A stretch of 64,000 bases of DNA from positions 558,001-622,000 of the forward strand of contig NZ_CP019082.1 in the NCBI RefSeq assembly GCF_001956985.1, in the 5' to 3' direction. The position numbers were made by a program, and so were the translations under genes. This stretch comes from Paludisphaera borealis. Its GTDB lineage: Bacteria; Planctomycetota; Planctomycetia; Isosphaerales; Isosphaeraceae. Of this stretch, positions 44,565-50,578 are shown piece by piece (position 1 is the first letter of the stretch; each line of letters begins with the position of its first letter). The notes below the pieces were generated by a model. That model saw nothing but the letters and a program-made list of their open reading frames with translations, was not told where the DNA came from and ran no database searches.

Positions 44565-47006
44565 TCACGGCATCTCGAGAATCGCCAGATCGCCGCTTTC
44601 GAGCATCACGGTCGTCCGGCCGTCCTTCCACGAAACGTTCCGGCCGCCGACCAGTTCGCGAGACGTTCCGGATACGGGCTTGTCGAGCGTGATCGTCTCT
44701 GATCGTTTTTCGGGGCCGTCGTTGAAGACGGTCAGGTAGCGAGGGCCGAGGTCGCCGTACCGCTCGACGTGGACGTGGTCGTCGCTCGACCGCGCCAGGG
44801 TGATCGGCTCCCAGCCGGCCTCGGCGATGGTTTTGCAGAGCGGCAGGTACTTGCGAAACAGCGGGCGGTCGCGGTCGTAGAGTTCGGGACGCGTGAAGTA
44901 GGCGCCGTCGGCCGCGTTGGGGCTGAAGAATCCTGGGAACATGCCGTATGCGACGGCCCGCTTCATGTACTTCTCAACCTTGTCGGCGCCGAACCGGTCG
45001 AAATCGGTGTTCATCAGGAAGCAGAACGGCTTCCCCTTGCACAGGGCGCGGCGGTACAGCAGGTCGGCGTCGGACATCGGCCGCCACGCGCCTTGCGGGT
45101 TCCAGTCGGTCTCGGTCCCCATCACGTCGAGCATTGGGGCGAGCCACCAGAGCCGGTCGGGCGTCGCGTTGGCCATCATGAGCTTGTCCGCGGCGTGGAC
45201 GTCGCGTGCGATCCCGCGCGCGTATTCGAACGCGATCGTCCCGCGGAAGACGGCGGGCCGGCGGTCGTCGATCGAGTAGACCAGCGGCGCTTCGGAGGTC
45301 GCGAAGTGGCTGCGGCGGAAGTCGAGTTCGTCGGTCACGTAGCCTTCGCTCGAATCGATGTACTCGCCGTCGAGGTCCCCCTTGCGGTTCGGTCCGTAGA
45401 ATCGCTCGCGGACCCGGGGGTTCCATTTGACCTGGAAGTCGTTGAGGTCGCCCGCGACGCCGGGCGCCGAGTTCATGCTCCACACGACCCCCTTGTTCCA
45501 GGGCGCTTCGATGAGCCGGCCGACGTACTGGCCGTCGCGGTCGTGATAGACGCTCGAGAGCCAGGCGCGGGCCTCAGCCTTGCCGGTCGCGGCGAGCCGC
45601 TCGGCCTCGGCCTTGGCGGCGTCGATCGTCCGGGGCATCTTCGGCGGCATCGGCATCCACCAGGTCATCGGCTCGGTGTAGCGGAACGTAATGATCCCGT
45701 GCGCGTCGTCCCAGGCGGTCTCGTCGGCGCCCTCCTTGAACCGGAAGCCGAAATCCTCCCAGCCCGGAATCGTGCTGATCTTGCTGAACGGCATCCAGAG
45801 CCCTTGCTTGGGGACGCGGCGGACGAAGGCTGCGGGGAACCGCCGATAATAAGCGTCGAGGGCTGCGCGGAAGCCCCACGCGGGATCGAAGCCGAACCGA
45901 CGGAAGTGGAGCGAGGCGCGATTCTTTTCGGGGGTCAACGCGACGTCGAAGGCGAGGAACAGCTCGCCGGTCCCCGCGTTGTAGCCGATCCGAGAGAAGG
46001 CGGGGCGATCGGGATCGAGGCCCAGGGCGAACCCCTGGCCGTCACGGGTCACGGCGCCCAGCGGGTAGAGCGACATCCGGCCGTTCGCGCCGGCGTGGAA
46101 CGTCTTGGCCTGCATGTACTCGGTCCCCGGCGTCGCGGGCGACGACCGCCGCAGGTCGTCGAGCCATCGGGCGCCGTCGGCCGGGACGGGGATCGTGTAA
46201 AGCAACGTCACCGCCCGGTCGCGGCCGGTCGCGTCGCTGAGCGTAACGTCGAAGACCTCGCCCCCCTGCTCCTTCGTCCGCTTGACTTCGAGCCCGAGAC
46301 CCAGCGCCTGCTTGTCGATGTGGACGAAGTCGCCGGCCGCCGCGACGTCGCGAACCAGGAAGCCGTCGCGCGACGGCCCGCGCGGGACGACGGGCTCGCC
46401 GTCGAACACGACGCCCGACGAGCCGGTGTCAAGGACGGTCAGCTTGGGATCGCGGAACGTCGCCTTGCCGGCGTGGCCGCGAAACAAGAGGCTGACCGTC
46501 AGCTCCTTGACGGGCCGCTCAGGGACGAAGACCACCCGCGCCTCCTGGTCGCCGTGCGAGCCCGTCTTGAACGGGGTCGACTGCCCCCAAACCTGCGAGC
46601 CGTCGTCATAGACGAGGTCGAGATAGAGCGCGTAATCGGGGTCGGGCGTTCCCGAGACCCCCTCGGCCGCGCTCCAGGCCGAGGCGACGATCGGCGCGGG
46701 GCGCTTCTGGTTGAGCACGACGTGCTGCGAGAGCCCGCGCCGGGCGTGGGCATCGCCACCGTTGTCGCAGACGAACCGAGCGCCTTCGACCTGAAAGCCC
46801 AGGTCCCAGGGTCGCCAGGCCTTGGGGTCGAGCACGTTCCGGCCGCCGTCGGCTGGTTTGACGACCGCCTTGGCGACCGCGCCGTCGAGTTCCACAGCGT
46901 CGGCGCGCTGGCTGATCGGGAACAAGGCGGCGGACAAGACGACGAAGACGCGCAGCGCGAAGGCCGCGGCGTTTCGTCTGCGTTGGCGGGCGTCAGGAAT
47001 TTTCAC
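44565..47006 (-). CDS. Large exported hydrolase-like protein
   Basis: An 813-residue secreted protein. The signal peptide (AAAFALRVFVVLSAALFPIS) follows the GTG start at 47006, which has GGAG upstream. The first 400 residues are beta-rich carbohydrate-binding-like; the second half has features of a TIM-barrel glycosidase (WEDFGFRFKEGADETAWDD, DGEYIDSSEGYVTDELDF, with paired acidic residues, and FCFLMNTDFDRF) and a C-terminal beta domain. I cannot name a GH family. Aromatic and Asp/Glu density suggests polysaccharide as substrate. Three hairpins separate it from the next upstream gene. Confidence 0.7.
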   Translation of the reverse strand: MKIPDARQRRRNAAAFALRVFVVLSAALFPISQRADAVELDGAVAKAVVKPADGGRNVLDPKAWRPWDLGFQVEGARFVCDNGGDAHARRGLSQHVVLNQKRPAPIVASAWSAAEGVSGTPDPDYALYLDLVYDDGSQVWGQSTPFKTGSHGDQEARVVFVPERPVKELTVSLLFRGHAGKATFRDPKLTVLDTGSSGVVFDGEPVVPRGPSRDGFLVRDVAAAGDFVHIDKQALGLGLEVKRTKEQGGEVFDVTLSDATGRDRAVTLLYTIPVPADGARWLDDLRRSSPATPGTEYMQAKTFHAGANGRMSLYPLGAVTRDGQGFALGLDPDRPAFSRIGYNAGTGELFLAFDVALTPEKNRASLHFRRFGFDPAWGFRAALDAYYRRFPAAFVRRVPKQGLWMPFSKISTIPGWEDFGFRFKEGADETAWDDAHGIITFRYTEPMTWWMPMPPKMPRTIDAAKAEAERLAATGKAEARAWLSSVYHDRDGQYVGRLIEAPWNKGVVWSMNSAPGVAGDLNDFQVKWNPRVRERFYGPNRKGDLDGEYIDSSEGYVTDELDFRRSHFATSEAPLVYSIDDRRPAVFRGTIAFEYARGIARDVHAADKLMMANATPDRLWWLAPMLDVMGTETDWNPQGAWRPMSDADLLYRRALCKGKPFCFLMNTDFDRFGADKVEKYMKRAVAYGMFPGFFSPNAADGAYFTRPELYDRDRPLFRKYLPLCKTIAEAGWEPITLARSSDDHVHVERYGDLGPRYLTVFNDGPEKRSETITLDKPVSGTSRELVGGRNVSWKDGRTTVMLESGDLAILEMP

Positions 47007-47110
47007 GGCAAGGGGCTCCGGAGGAAACGAGTCGGGTGCTCGTCTACCATCCTGATCCGATCCGTGATCGGCGGCAACCCGTGGTTGGGCGAGGACGATC
47101 CGTGAGAGCG

Positions 47111-47266
47111 GGCGGGCCTTCCCCCCTTGCTTGGGAAGGCCCGCCGCGGAGGGCGGGATCGAGAATGTGGGCGGGTCTCCCCCCCTTTGCATGGGGAGAC
47201 ACGCCGCGAAAGGAGTTTCGGGAGGGGTGGGCGGGCCTTCCCCCCTTGCATTGGGAAGGCCCGCCC
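47111..47266. repeat. Three tandem hairpin repeats
   Basis: Three copies, about 60 bases apart, of a hairpin: arms at 47111-47123/47133-47145, 47171-47182/47193-47204 and 47229-47242/47253-47266. The arms are GGCGGGCCTTCCC-like with perfect complement in copies 1 and 3 and one mismatch in copy 2; loops are 9-10 bases with CTTGC. They lie between the 114-residue gene's stop and the GH-like gene's start. Confidence 0.75.
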
Positions 47267-47280
47267 GCGAGGCGGGGGAA

Positions 47281-47625
47281 TCAATACCGGCCGACCAGCT
47301 CCGGCTCCCGTTCGAGGGCCGTCGAGGCCCGCTCGTGGATCGGCAGGAGGCGTTCGGTTCGGCGGTGGTCGCGCGAGGCCTGTTGGACCGGACTGTTGGG
47401 ATGGAACGAGCTTTGCTTGGTCAGGAAATCGGCGTTAAGCCGAAGCCAGCGAAGAACCTCGCCGGCTTGATCACCGACCAGCCGGAGGTCGCTGCGGCCG
47501 CCGGTCTGGGTCGCGAAACCCAACCGAAGCACCACGCCTTCAGGCCCCGGGCCGTCGACGACCGCGTAAGCCAGCAGGTCGGGATTGATCAACGTGTCGC
47601 CGACGGACAGGAATTTCTTGCTCAT
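47281..47625 (-). CDS. Hypothetical protein downstream of the polycysteine leader
   Basis: A 114-residue cytoplasmic protein, not recognised. It contains VVDGPGPEGVVLRLGFATQ and LRLVGDQAGEVLRWLRLNAD, an alpha/beta pattern, and a charged C-terminal tail. There are no cysteines. It is the first gene after the 13-codon leader ORF (47819-47860), 195 bases downstream, and thus the candidate target of any leader-based regulation. Its own ribosome site (GACGAGATC) is weak, which would suit control at translation. Confidence 0.6.
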   Translation of the reverse strand: MSKKFLSVGDTLINPDLLAYAVVDGPGPEGVVLRLGFATQTGGRSDLRLVGDQAGEVLRWLRLNADFLTKQSSFHPNSPVQQASRDHRRTERLLPIHERASTALEREPELVGRY

Positions 47626-47818
47626 GTCGGATCTCGTCTCGCTTTGCGTGATCGGGTGTTCTTGTATCCGACCGCTCGCGGAAATCTCACGCGGCGATCT
47701 TCGATGAAAGGAACGTGTCGTCGTTTCGGGCGAACCGTCGAGGATCGTGGACCGCTCTCGACCCCCGTTCGCTCGCGGTTGCGGCTCCCGCGTCGTCCGC
47801 CGAGCCGGGAAGGCCGCG

Positions 47819-47860
47819 TCAACAGCAGCAACAACAACATCGCCCTGATCGAATGAACAT
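47819..47860 (-). CDS. Polycysteine leader ORF (MFIRSGR followed by six Cys and stop)
   Basis: Thirteen codons: ATG, six ordinary codons, then TGT TGT TGT TGC TGC TGT and TGA. AGGAG sits seven bases before the ATG, and a well-formed promoter (47938-47966) gives a transcript start about 70 bases upstream. Runs of cysteine codons at the end of short leader ORFs are known in mycobacteria as sensors of charged tRNA-Cys, where stalling controls downstream genes. Here the next gene is an unknown 114-residue protein 195 bases on. No rho-independent terminator is obvious in between, so the mode of control is open. Confidence 0.65.
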   Translation of the reverse strand: MFIRSGRCCCCCC

Positions 47861-47937
47861 GCCGAGACTCCTGGGGCCGCCGTGGCCCGCTTGAATTCCG
47901 TCCGCTTTCAAGCACCGACGACGACTGTGATGACAGA

Positions 47938-47966
47938 ACAATACCTGGACCCGGCGGGCAAGTCAA
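47938..47966 (-). promoter_or_regulatory. Sigma-70-type promoter of the polycysteine leader
   Basis: On the minus strand TTGACT (47966-47961), a 17-base spacer and TATTGT (47943-47938) form a good -35/-10 pair. The surroundings are notably AT-richer than average. Transcription would begin about 47931, leaving a leader of about 70 bases to the leader-ORF start. Confidence 0.65.
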
Positions 47967-48249
47967 GATTTTGTCGATAGAATTAGTATGAATTGATTGT
48001 GGAGCCCGACGCTGGTGGTTGCGCGGCTGCTTTTTTGACTTGGGCGATTAGGCAGGATGGCGCGATAAAATCGTCGGATGCGAAACTGTGTGGGGTTATG
48101 CGGATGACGGGGTCTTTACGGGGTCTTGGCGATTCGGGAAGAATAGATGGCATGGAGAACCAGGAATCCCGATGCAAAGGAGTGTGTTCTCGGTGGCTGG
48201 ATGGGCTTCGGCGCCGACGCCTGGTCCAGTGGGCTGGAGAGGAGAGGGC

Positions 48250-49551
48250 ATGAGCGTCTCAGAGGTGGTCGTCCGTCCCGCGTTTGACGATGTCGTCCTT
48301 CAGCGGCGGATCATGCGGCTGCGACAGGCTGACAACGTCACCAATTTGCTGTACCTCGCCCGCGAGTACGCCTGCCTGATCGTGGCGATCGGAACGACGG
48401 TGGCGTTCGCGGAATCGCGGGCGGCGTGGGGGTTGTCGTGGTTGTGGAACATTCCCATCTTCGCGGCGGCGATCGTCGTGGTGGGGGCGTTGCAGCATCG
48501 GCTGGCCGGGCTGGGTCATGAGTCGTCGCATTACACGTTCCTCAAGAACCGGTTCCTCAACGACCTGATCCCCGACCTGTTCTGCATGTTCCCGCTCATG
48601 ACGTCGGTGCACTTCTACCGCGTCTTCCACATGGCCCATCACCAGTACACCAACGACCCCGAGCGCGATCCCGACCTGCTGAACCTGGGCCGTGGCAAGC
48701 GGGCGTTCGAGTTCCCGATGAGCCGCAGCCGGTTCATCGCGGTGGTCTACTTCTGCATGTTCGTCGCGCCGTTGCGGTTCGCGGAGTACCAGTTCGCGTA
48801 CATGACCGTGAACACGCTGGGCAAGGGCAAAAGCATCTACCGACGCCGCGACGGCGCCGACCACGGCCGGTTCGAGATCTACATCCCGAGGCTGGCGACG
48901 GCTTTAGGGGTGCTTTACGTCGTCGGGCTGAACATTCTGTTCGGCTGGATGCGGACGACCCACCAGCCGGGCTGGATCGTGCCGGCGGGCCTACTGGCGG
49001 GAACCCTCGCCACACTGATCCTTCGGGCGCTGCCGGACTGGGCCGTCTTCCAGTCGCCGTTCCGCCAGGTTTATTCGACCCGGTTCTCGGGCGCGGCGAG
49101 GCTCTGGTTCTTCACGGTCGCCTTCATCGTGCTGTCGCTCTTGCGATACCAGACCGACGGACGGTCGGCGATGTACGTGATCTTGCTCTGGTTCGTGCCG
49201 ATGCTGACGACGTTCCCGTTCTTCATGCTGCTCCGCGACGTCTACCAGCACTCGAACGCCGACACCGGGCGGCTGACGAACTCGCGGGTCTTCTTCGCCG
49301 ACCCGTTCACGCGGTGGGCGGTGTTCGTCTACGGGCAGGATATGCACATCCCCCACCACCTGTTCCCGGCCATCCCGCACTACCGGCTCGCCGAGCTGCA
49401 CGAGCTGCTCAAGGAGACCCACGACGCCTACGGCGCGCAGGTCGTGGAATGCCACGGCACGTTCGTCGGCGACGACGCCCACCCGACGATCCTCGACGAG
49501 ATGACCAAACCGAGAGCCCCATTCGGCCGTGGCGAGCCCGTGACGTCCTGA
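48250..49551 (+). CDS. Membrane fatty-acid desaturase
   Basis: A 433-residue di-iron acyl-lipid desaturase/hydroxylase. The three histidine boxes are present: HESSH (90-94), HMAHH (127-131) and HIPHH (366-370), and about four to six membrane helices between them. It introduces double bonds or hydroxyls into membrane lipids, or modifies carotenoids (CrtW/CrtR-like members share this fold). GGAGAGG before the ATG at 48250 decides the start; an open frame extends 160 bases upstream but is unlikely to be translated. Confidence 0.88.
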   Translation: MSVSEVVVRPAFDDVVLQRRIMRLRQADNVTNLLYLAREYACLIVAIGTTVAFAESRAAWGLSWLWNIPIFAAAIVVVGALQHRLAGLGHESSHYTFLKNRFLNDLIPDLFCMFPLMTSVHFYRVFHMAHHQYTNDPERDPDLLNLGRGKRAFEFPMSRSRFIAVVYFCMFVAPLRFAEYQFAYMTVNTLGKGKSIYRRRDGADHGRFEIYIPRLATALGVLYVVGLNILFGWMRTTHQPGWIVPAGLLAGTLATLILRALPDWAVFQSPFRQVYSTRFSGAARLWFFTVAFIVLSLLRYQTDGRSAMYVILLWFVPMLTTFPFFMLLRDVYQHSNADTGRLTNSRVFFADPFTRWAVFVYGQDMHIPHHLFPAIPHYRLAELHELLKETHDAYGAQVVECHGTFVGDDAHPTILDEMTKPRAPFGRGEPVTS

Positions 49552-49610
49552 ATCAACCTGAGCCGGTCCGACTGACAAGCGGGCCGGCTCGTCGGTTAGA
49601 GTGGACGATC

Positions 49611-50093
49611 ATGTTCAAACGAAGCTTGATGGTCCTCATTGCTTTCGTCGCTTGCGTCGTCTTGGCGATGACGTACCCGGTGCGGAGCATCTCCACCTGG
49701 ATCGATCCCGTCTCCGGGTCCGTGAAGTTCGAGACTTCCTGGTTGTTCATCCCGACAAGGACCAGGATCGAGACCTCGGAGCTTGAGCGCTGGATCGTCG
49801 CGCACGAAGGATGCCACAATCCCCAATGGCACTTCCTGAATGAGAATTACCGGCTGATCTCCGGCCGGTTCGCGGGATGTGGAGTCGGCCGAACGCCGAA
49901 GATCTTTCCCATTCATGCGGGCGATTCCAATACGCGTTTCGTCCACGTCGCGACGGATGCCGAGATCGTTGAGTTCGTGCGCGCCATGAGGAGCGGTACG
50001 CCTGACGAACAGGAGCGCGCCGTCGATGAGGCGGGGAAGATCCTCGAAAGAGGCTACGGAAGCCCGACCGCGGCCCCCGCCGGCCCGTCCTGA
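49611..50093 (+). CDS. Small exported protein, paralogue A of a tandem duplication
   Basis: A 160-residue protein with an N-terminal membrane/signal segment (MVLIAFVACVVLAM) and a mature domain starting WIDPVSGSVKFETSWLFIP, including IVAHEGCHNPQWHFL and a C-terminal helix AEIVEFVRAMRSGTPDEQ. The conserved HEG.H element is suggestive of a metal site but is not a known motif. The next gene is its duplicate. Family not recognised. Confidence 0.65.
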   Translation: MFKRSLMVLIAFVACVVLAMTYPVRSISTWIDPVSGSVKFETSWLFIPTRTRIETSELERWIVAHEGCHNPQWHFLNENYRLISGRFAGCGVGRTPKIFPIHAGDSNTRFVHVATDAEIVEFVRAMRSGTPDEQERAVDEAGKILERGYGSPTAAPAGPS

Positions 50094-50106
50094 CGAACGG
50101 GCCGGC
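50079..50106. other. Hairpin spanning a stop codon within the duplicated unit
   Basis: GCCGGCCCGT (50079-50088) and ACGGGCCGGC (50097-50106) form a perfect ten-base stem around the TGA of the first paralogue. A weaker version (GAGCCGG/CCGGCTC at 49560-49590) precedes the first paralogue. The following CGTCGGTTAGA.TGGA..ATCATG is almost identical before both genes. No T-run follows. Confidence 0.5.
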
Positions 50107-50128
50107 TCGTCGGTTAGAATGGATAATC

Positions 50129-50578
50129 ATGCGACCTCGAACCCGGGCTTGCCTCATCGCAATTCCAGTTTGCACCATCCTGGCGTTTGTGCTGCCTGTA
50201 CGGAGCGACCACGACTGGATCGATCCCGTCAGCGGTTCGATGAAGTTCCGGACCTCCTTGTTGTTCATCCCAGTAAAGACCAGGATCGAGCAGTCGGAAC
50301 TCGAGCGCTGGATCGTAGCGCATGAAGGGGCCCACGTTTCTCAGTGGCGCTCTCTCAGCGATGTTGCATCGACGATCAGCGGCCAGGTGATCGCACGCGG
50401 ATGCAACTTGTCGCCGGCGATCCATCAATTCCACGTGCGCGACCTCAATACGCGCTTCGTTCGCAACGCCACGGATGCGGAGATCGCGGAATTCGTCCGT
50501 GTCATGAGACATGGGACGCGCGACGAACAGGCGCAAGCCGTCGATGAGGCGTCGAAGATCCTCGACAGACGCGACTGA
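50129..50578 (+). CDS. Small exported protein, paralogue B of a tandem duplication
   Basis: A 149-residue paralogue of the gene just upstream: WIDPVSGSMKFRTSLLFIP, IVAHEGAHVSQW, NTRFVRNATDAEIAEFVRVM and the C-terminal DEQAQAVDEASKILDR correspond position by position. A short hydrophobic N-terminus (CLIAIPVCTILAFVLP) is the likely signal. About half of the residues match paralogue A, so the duplication is not recent, although the leader before each ATG is nearly unchanged. Function unknown. Confidence 0.65.
   Translation: MRPRTRACLIAIPVCTILAFVLPVRSDHDWIDPVSGSMKFRTSLLFIPVKTRIEQSELERWIVAHEGAHVSQWRSLSDVASTISGQVIARGCNLSPAIHQFHVRDLNTRFVRNATDAEIAEFVRVMRHGTRDEQAQAVDEASKILDRRD

Follow-up and report, generated by a model that had tools for sequence, protein, structure and literature searches.

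The window considered here is a 64,000-nt stretch of the Paludisphaera borealis genome (contig NZ_CP019082.1, positions 558,001 to 622,000). On its minus strand lies a gene for a 114-aa protein (47281..47625) that is preceded by a leader ORF of 13 codons, MFIRSGRCCCCCC, at 47860-47819. The leader reads ATG TTC ATT CGA TCA GGG CGA TGT TGT TGT TGC TGC TGT TGA, the last six sense codons (47839-47822) all specifying cysteine and the TGA stop (47821-47819) coming immediately after them; a Shine-Dalgarno sequence, AGGAG (47872..47868, minus strand), lies 7 nt 5' of the ATG. Upstream is a predicted sigma-70-like promoter, TTGACT-17-TATTGT (47966..47938, minus strand), which matches the consensus at 9 of 12 positions, ends about 78 nt ahead of the leader ATG and is the sole sigma-70-like match in 46500-49000 (shuffle mean 0.3); relatives have a -35-like TTG at the equal place. 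Directly 5' of the -35 box is an operator-like motif, CATACTAATTCTATCGACAAAAT (47968..47990, minus strand), whose consensus is common to A2 and A3. The leader stop and the gene are separated by an untranslated spacer of 193 nt (47626..47818, minus strand) in which no terminator-like site and no conserved fold was found; the two terminator-like matches in 46500-49000 both lie outside the interval between leader and gene (47819-47626), leaving no intrinsic terminator there. In these respects (the six terminal Cys codons, AGGAG at the proper distance, a -35/-10 pair with 17-base spacing and no Rho-independent terminator ahead of the gene) the initial annotation of the locus was accurate. No known riboswitch was found: a search of 47000-48400 against the Rfam families gave no match at E up to 1.

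Several other features adjoin this unit. A fatty acid desaturase gene (48250-49551, plus strand; Pfam E 5.7e-32) is transcribed away from the leader, and by eye a desaturase-like gene is also a neighbour of the 114-aa gene in both G028 and G032. Further along, two adjoining ORFs (about 49600-50575, plus strand) have the look of tandem paralogues (WIDPVSGS...SELERWIVAHEG) and gave no Pfam match. On the 3' side of the 114-aa gene, three direct repeats of 48 nt occupy 47110-47276 at spacings of 60 and 59, two of them with perfect inverted arms, and similar palindromes are visible 3' of the gene in the four genus relatives that carry it. In G008 the gene is followed, differently from the genus, by a 206-aa ORF that by eye has a P-loop look (L041:4650-5270, plus strand).

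The 114-aa protein contains no Cys and a single Met. The window protein had no Pfam match, and the nine family members gave only weak ones (best E 0.095, each found with one member); the family had no sequence match in NCBIfam or the PDB, and no plasmid match was found for the gene. A low-confidence AlphaFold model computed from nine rows (pLDDT 66.8) shows an N-terminal beta/helix region followed by a disordered tail, and its best structural match in the PDB, a PH domain, was not significant (E 0.097).

A run of cysteine codons before a stop is not by itself beyond chance in this genome, since five Cys codons followed by TRR occur once in its 7.65 Mb, as often as the reversed control pattern. 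We therefore judged the leader by its conservation among orthologues rather than by the rarity of the run. At E up to 1e-5 the 114-aa gene is present in nine of 45 genomes of the family Isosphaeraceae, including five of the six genus genomes; these orthologues span five genera, four of which have the leader. Searching 397 class genomes with a profile brought in two further, weak matches (G022 and G341, E about 7e-6), neither with a leader visible by eye. Within the region from about +1 to the gene start of each orthologue, an ATG..Cys-Cys-stop ORF of 5-20 codons was recovered in seven of nine cases (six of eight without the window). Dinucleotide shuffling of each sequence gave such an ORF in 0-6 of 5000 trials; the orthologues are not independent of one another. 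Besides that of the window, these leaders are MPSRTNRGCC (G028), MPARPARGCCC (G030), MPTRSSRCCC (G029), MSRRCC (G027), MATHLHHYFCC (G008) and MKTVHVAGCC (G010). They are unlike each other apart from the cysteines, and most have a purine-rich, Shine-Dalgarno-like stretch 5' of the ORF. In G032 the ORF reads MPDRDRLCC, has CGA in place of the stop and continues to RRLV before terminating; this genome (locus L003) is a MAG, and an assembly error may account for the missing stop. In G011 (L007) the gene sits close behind its promoter with no leader. The expectation that the leader would be kept with the gene in relatives thus stood for eight of the nine orthologues, G032 having lost the stop only, and failed for G011. 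At the level of sequence comparison, the leader ORF is confirmed as real and conserved.

The same kind of leader precedes two other kinds of gene. In a group of rhodanese orthologues from G037, G038, G013 and G011 (100, 90, 71 and 51% identity), the leaders are MIAIRPFCCC, MIAIRLSCCC, MVIPSHGCCC and MSHAHRFCCC, respectively. Among 28 rhodanese loci examined, three of these leaders were found by script and that of G013, whose locus ends at a contig end, was seen separately; the other 24 loci, some of them short, showed no Cys-Cys leader. Two DUF1559 genes are preceded by MRMILCCCHEITCLTECPFQS (G037) and MRMILCCSHSNTCLTECLYPS (G038). We also looked more broadly, and the pattern GGAG-ATG-CysCysCys-stop has matches in 163 of 397 class genomes. 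When 13 such stretches were examined by eye, regulon context was seen only in L161 (G037), and no motif or leader context was visible in the remaining 12 (four from the genus, eight from beyond the family), so that the leader is likely confined to the family.

Leaders of this kind favour a cysteine codon, TGT, that is otherwise rare. The 11 leaders that end in Cys-stop (seven before the 114-aa gene and four before rhodanese genes) contain 25 TGT and 7 TGC codons, as against 75 TGT and 620 TGC in long ORFs from stretches of 12 family genomes. Ten of the 11 end in TGT TGT TGA, and that of the window in TGC TGC TGT TGA; the two DUF1559 leaders have 5 TGT and 4 TGC. The use of rare synonymous codons suggests that the codons rather than the peptide are read.

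We built a sequence-only model (R1) from the nine upstream regions of the 114-aa gene and ran it on the 45 family genomes. The window, one of its nine training rows, matches at 47995-47930 (E 2.5e-9). Outside the training sites R1 found 18 sites at E up to 0.01, and the genes downstream are DUF2292-like at ten, DUF1559 first at six, a rhodanese at one (L083) and none of these at one (L098). The DUF2292-like assignment was confirmed by Pfam in five cases (L084, L087, L088, L090 and L094) and made by motif in the other five; DUF1559 was assigned at the six sites by an N-terminal motif, with Pfam confirmation only at other sites (L101 and L238), and downstream of most motif sites it was recognised by eye. 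Sulfatase genes lie further along at L084 and L092 (Pfam E 1e-126 and 9e-68), and in the P. borealis genome itself a PSCyt1/PSCyt2/PSD1 protein is encoded further along at L103 (R1 E 0.2). The DUF2292 protein of L103 passes the Pfam DUF2292 cut-off (54.7 bits against 22); as the one DUF2292 protein scored against the NCBIfam model for OscA (NF033785, sulfur starvation response), it matched at E 5e-8 with 32.8 bits, below the cut-off of 85.

A second model, R2, was built from 35 sites with the consensus AATCTCTATnAATTCGATCGAnATTGTCGATATTnnTCTTGAC and run on 15 genomes, where it gave 92 matches, 60 of them with loci; many matches of either model above E 0.01 look like chance. Thirteen of the 60 sites have a Cys-Cys ORF of 5-25 codons whose ATG is 132-157 nt away from where the motif match begins, and these precede the 114-aa gene (8), rhodanese (3) and DUF1559 (2). 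In a stricter rerun with fixed offsets, 12 of 60 sites passed, as did 19 of 1200 shuffles; the reverse strand and the upstream side each gave 0 of 60. Most R2 sites (47 of 60) are without a leader, and none was found at 14 DUF2292-type sites. At two places R2 matched on both strands (G000:C1:6634331 and 6634381; G030:C114:59901 and 59940), as would be expected of an operator that is near-palindromic or works in both directions.

These results bear on the statement of the initial annotation that the downstream gene has no known link to sulfur. This needs correcting, as the promoter motif is common to genes for OscA-like proteins, sulfatases, a rhodanese and a CymR-like regulator. By virtue of that motif, the 114-aa gene appears to belong to a sulfur-limitation regulon, and its regulation, as read from sequence, points to sulfur limitation. 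The tie of the 114-aa and DUF1559 genes to sulfur runs only through the shared motif; leaders before rhodanese genes occur in four genomes.

The motif also suggests which regulator may bind it. Homologues of Rrf2 are present in all 45 family genomes, and in six of six genus genomes an R2 match lies 5' of an Rrf2-family gene (E 0.27 to 6e-8, G029 being weakest), as judged from coordinates and with G028 and G031 among the R2 training sites. Further R2 matches lie 5' of Rrf2 genes in G002 (5.8e-5), G001 (0.036) and G038 (3.2e-4), and a small ORF usually sits between motif and gene. R1 found the motif at two of 30 Rrf2 loci; R2, whose training set included both of these, finds more, and most Rrf2 homologues of the 45 genomes were not seen with the motif. 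The Rrf2 protein scores 97.5 bits against the Rrf2 superfamily cut-off of 73.3, which it passes (98.7 bits for the copy in the P. borealis genome, C1:404659-405066), and its best specific match is CymR (NF047409) at 88.9 bits, far under the cut-off of 195. In G002 the motif is followed by the small ORF, the Rrf2 gene, a gene for a cystathionine beta-synthase-like protein (505.5 bits, cut-off 510.25) and one for cystathionine gamma-synthase (542.6 bits, cut-off 513). As the motif precedes the Rrf2 gene itself, which would fit autoregulation, the motif 5' of the -35 box is probably where a CymR-like Rrf2 regulator acts. Adjoining the Rrf2 genes in the P. borealis genome (L287:5351-5821, plus strand; G000:C1 about 405850-406320, outside the window) and in G031 (L109:365-835, minus strand) is a gene whose 157-aa product has 38-39 Met and 24-26 Cys residues and no Pfam match, possibly a sulfur store or metal binder.

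We searched the RNA downstream of the leader for a conserved switch and found none: across 12 leader units there was neither a consistent fold nor consistent masking of the gene start. Leader stop and gene are 175-284 nt apart in these units. Folding z values range from -2.1 to +1.1 for the 69 nt that follow the stop, and for the spacer as a whole they fall below -2 in three units. Masking by a stalled ribosome raised the predicted accessibility of the start by more than 0.1 in three of 12 units, the window not among them. A stem, GACGCC..GGCGTC, is visible starting in the stop codon in G028 and G029 and, at the corresponding position, in G032; in the window it is not seen in this form. Immediately past the stop, 20 nt are rich in C and poor in G, as Rho might use, in five of 12 units, which include neither the window nor the genus.

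Given the conserved Cys codons and a control sequence shared with sulfur-scavenging genes, the leader probably senses cysteine shortage. We consider it likely, in full, that the ORF is a translated leader which senses the supply of charged cysteine tRNA within a sulfur-limitation regulon under a CymR-like operator, and that stalling relieves the 114-aa gene. A CymR-like Rrf2 regulator would act at the operator 5' of the -35 box, as autoregulation suggests. When cysteine is short, a ribosome would stall on the Cys codons beside the stop, which would relieve the 114-aa gene at the level of transcription or translation. When cysteine is ample, the ribosome would complete the leader and release, and expression might then drop off across the 193-nt spacer, perhaps, as a guess, through Rho. 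The initial annotation had seen in the tandem Cys codons the hallmark of cysteine-responsive attenuation; the leader type was borne out by Cys-Cys-stop ORFs in seven of nine orthologues and leaders before two other gene kinds, whereas cysteine-driven attenuation is what we infer.

Several other readings of the leader deserve consideration. That cysteine is the sole conserved feature of the peptide, and that in the two DUF1559 leaders Cys is spread beyond the first pair, is what one would expect if the peptide itself were sensor or product, the nascent Cys-Cys end meeting a metal, oxidant or thiol and arresting the ribosome, or the freed peptide binding metal. We regard this as unlikely, for such a peptide has no need of a rare codon, yet TGT outnumbers TGC by 25 to 7, the remaining peptide is free to vary, and the company of the motif is sulfur genes, not metal genes. 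Alternatively, what is conserved could be the nucleotide string TGTTGTTGA as a binding site in RNA or DNA, with an incidental reading frame, and this string is indeed present in 10 of 11 Cys-stop leaders, mostly followed by C. It is, however, in frame with an upstream ATG in 11 of 11 (partly through selection, as the leaders were found as ORFs), it is broken in the window (TGCTGCTGTTGA) where Cys is kept, and the DUF1559 leaders, which do not have the string at the stop, retain Cys nonetheless; we think a bound nucleotide motif quite improbable.

Slightly less probable still is a constant role, in which the leader helps or damps translation by standby or reinitiation, the operator alone regulates and cysteine is not a signal. 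Most regulon genes do lack a leader, and the part of PMC4833913 available describes leader genes as common in bacteria and able to raise translation by reinitiation; the same source gives a reinitiation spacing of 10-11 bp, against 175-284 nt from stop to gene here, and no amino acid besides cysteine is conserved in the leaders. Finally, the Cys run might be a chance by-product of CTG/TTG-rich DNA, its count equalling the control in the P. borealis genome, or the true frame might encode Leu. In the window a Leu frame (MLLLLLLTRP...) is open from its ATG through to the gene, and, among the matches listed in the 397 class genomes, most pattern matches are Leu-frame by eye. We dismissed the Leu frame, as five of 12 units have no ATG in it, its ORFs run on for 14 to 197 nt beyond the stop of the leader and it has no conserved product, whereas the Cys frame has an ATG in 12 of 12 units and a stop directly after Cys in 11 of 12; chance or a Leu frame is the least credible of these readings, with scarcely any probability.

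The preferred reading, a leader that senses charged cysteine tRNA, has counterparts among known systems. In the trp and leu attenuators, a run of regulatory codons lies in a leader peptide and uses rare synonymous codons. The leaders described here share both traits and differ in that neither a terminator nor a conserved pair of alternative hairpins was found. The CymR regulon of Firmicutes ties an Rrf2-superfamily regulator to genes for cysteine synthesis. Here, too, a regulator of this superfamily occurs with such genes, but its score is far under the CymR cut-off, the motif lies 5' of the -35 box, and the targets include sulfatases and DUF1559 proteins. Rho-dependent leader control of the tnaC type is named in the accessible part of Seliverstov et al. 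2005 (PMC1262725). As in tnaC, the regulatory codons are near the stop, so that the RNA immediately 3' of the stop would be covered by a ribosome stalled on them; unlike in tnaC, the signal would be a lack of Cys rather than Trp, and a C-rich stretch follows the stop in only five of 12 units.

A close likeness is to leaders from Actinobacteria. As far as its available text goes, PMC1262725 describes leaders whose Cys runs lie close to the stop and which precede cys operons in Mycobacterium and Propionibacterium and cbs in Bifidobacterium, without terminators and with Rho suggested, and excerpts of PMC9031893, PMC9094748 and PMC13236596 cite Canestrari et al. 2020 for leaderless poly-Cys ORFs in mycobacteria. 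Like these, our leaders are short ORFs with a Cys run near the stop and no intrinsic terminator before the gene; those of Actinobacteria precede sulfur genes, with Rho or translational control proposed in the text available. Unlike these, our leaders occur in another phylum, are led by a Shine-Dalgarno sequence with, going by the predicted promoter, about 70 nt before the ATG rather than being leaderless, place rare TGT codons beside the stop, precede an orphan gene, rhodanese or DUF1559 genes rather than cys operons, and are combined with an Rrf2-type operator. The leader thus most likely resembles actinobacterial poly-Cys leaders and differs from them in build. Planctomycete leader genes receive only general mention in the accessible text of PMC4833913, and we found no report of a cysteine leader in planctomycetes in the titles and abstract openings of a partially covered open-licence literature.

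Taken as a whole, these observations lead us to propose, tentatively and at somewhat less than even odds, a two-layer sulfur-starvation circuit in Isosphaeraceae, in which a CymR-like Rrf2 regulator would act at the operator 5' of the -35 box and selected genes would in addition have a Shine-Dalgarno-led UGU-UGU-stop leader that reads charged Cys-tRNA through rare codons, with no terminator and perhaps with Rho. Such a circuit would control scavenging and orphan genes and not cysteine synthesis enzymes alone, and would link the supply of sulfur to the expanded sulfatase, PSCyt1/PSD1 and DUF1559 genes of planctomycetes. If this is true, cysteine-reading leader peptides exist beyond Actinobacteria, where they are built differently, and the orphan 114-aa gene would gain a testable context in sulfur limitation. 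The placement of some planctomycete sulfatase, PSCyt1/PSD1 and DUF1559 genes would then be explained by a promoter motif that they have in common with OscA-like and CymR-like genes.
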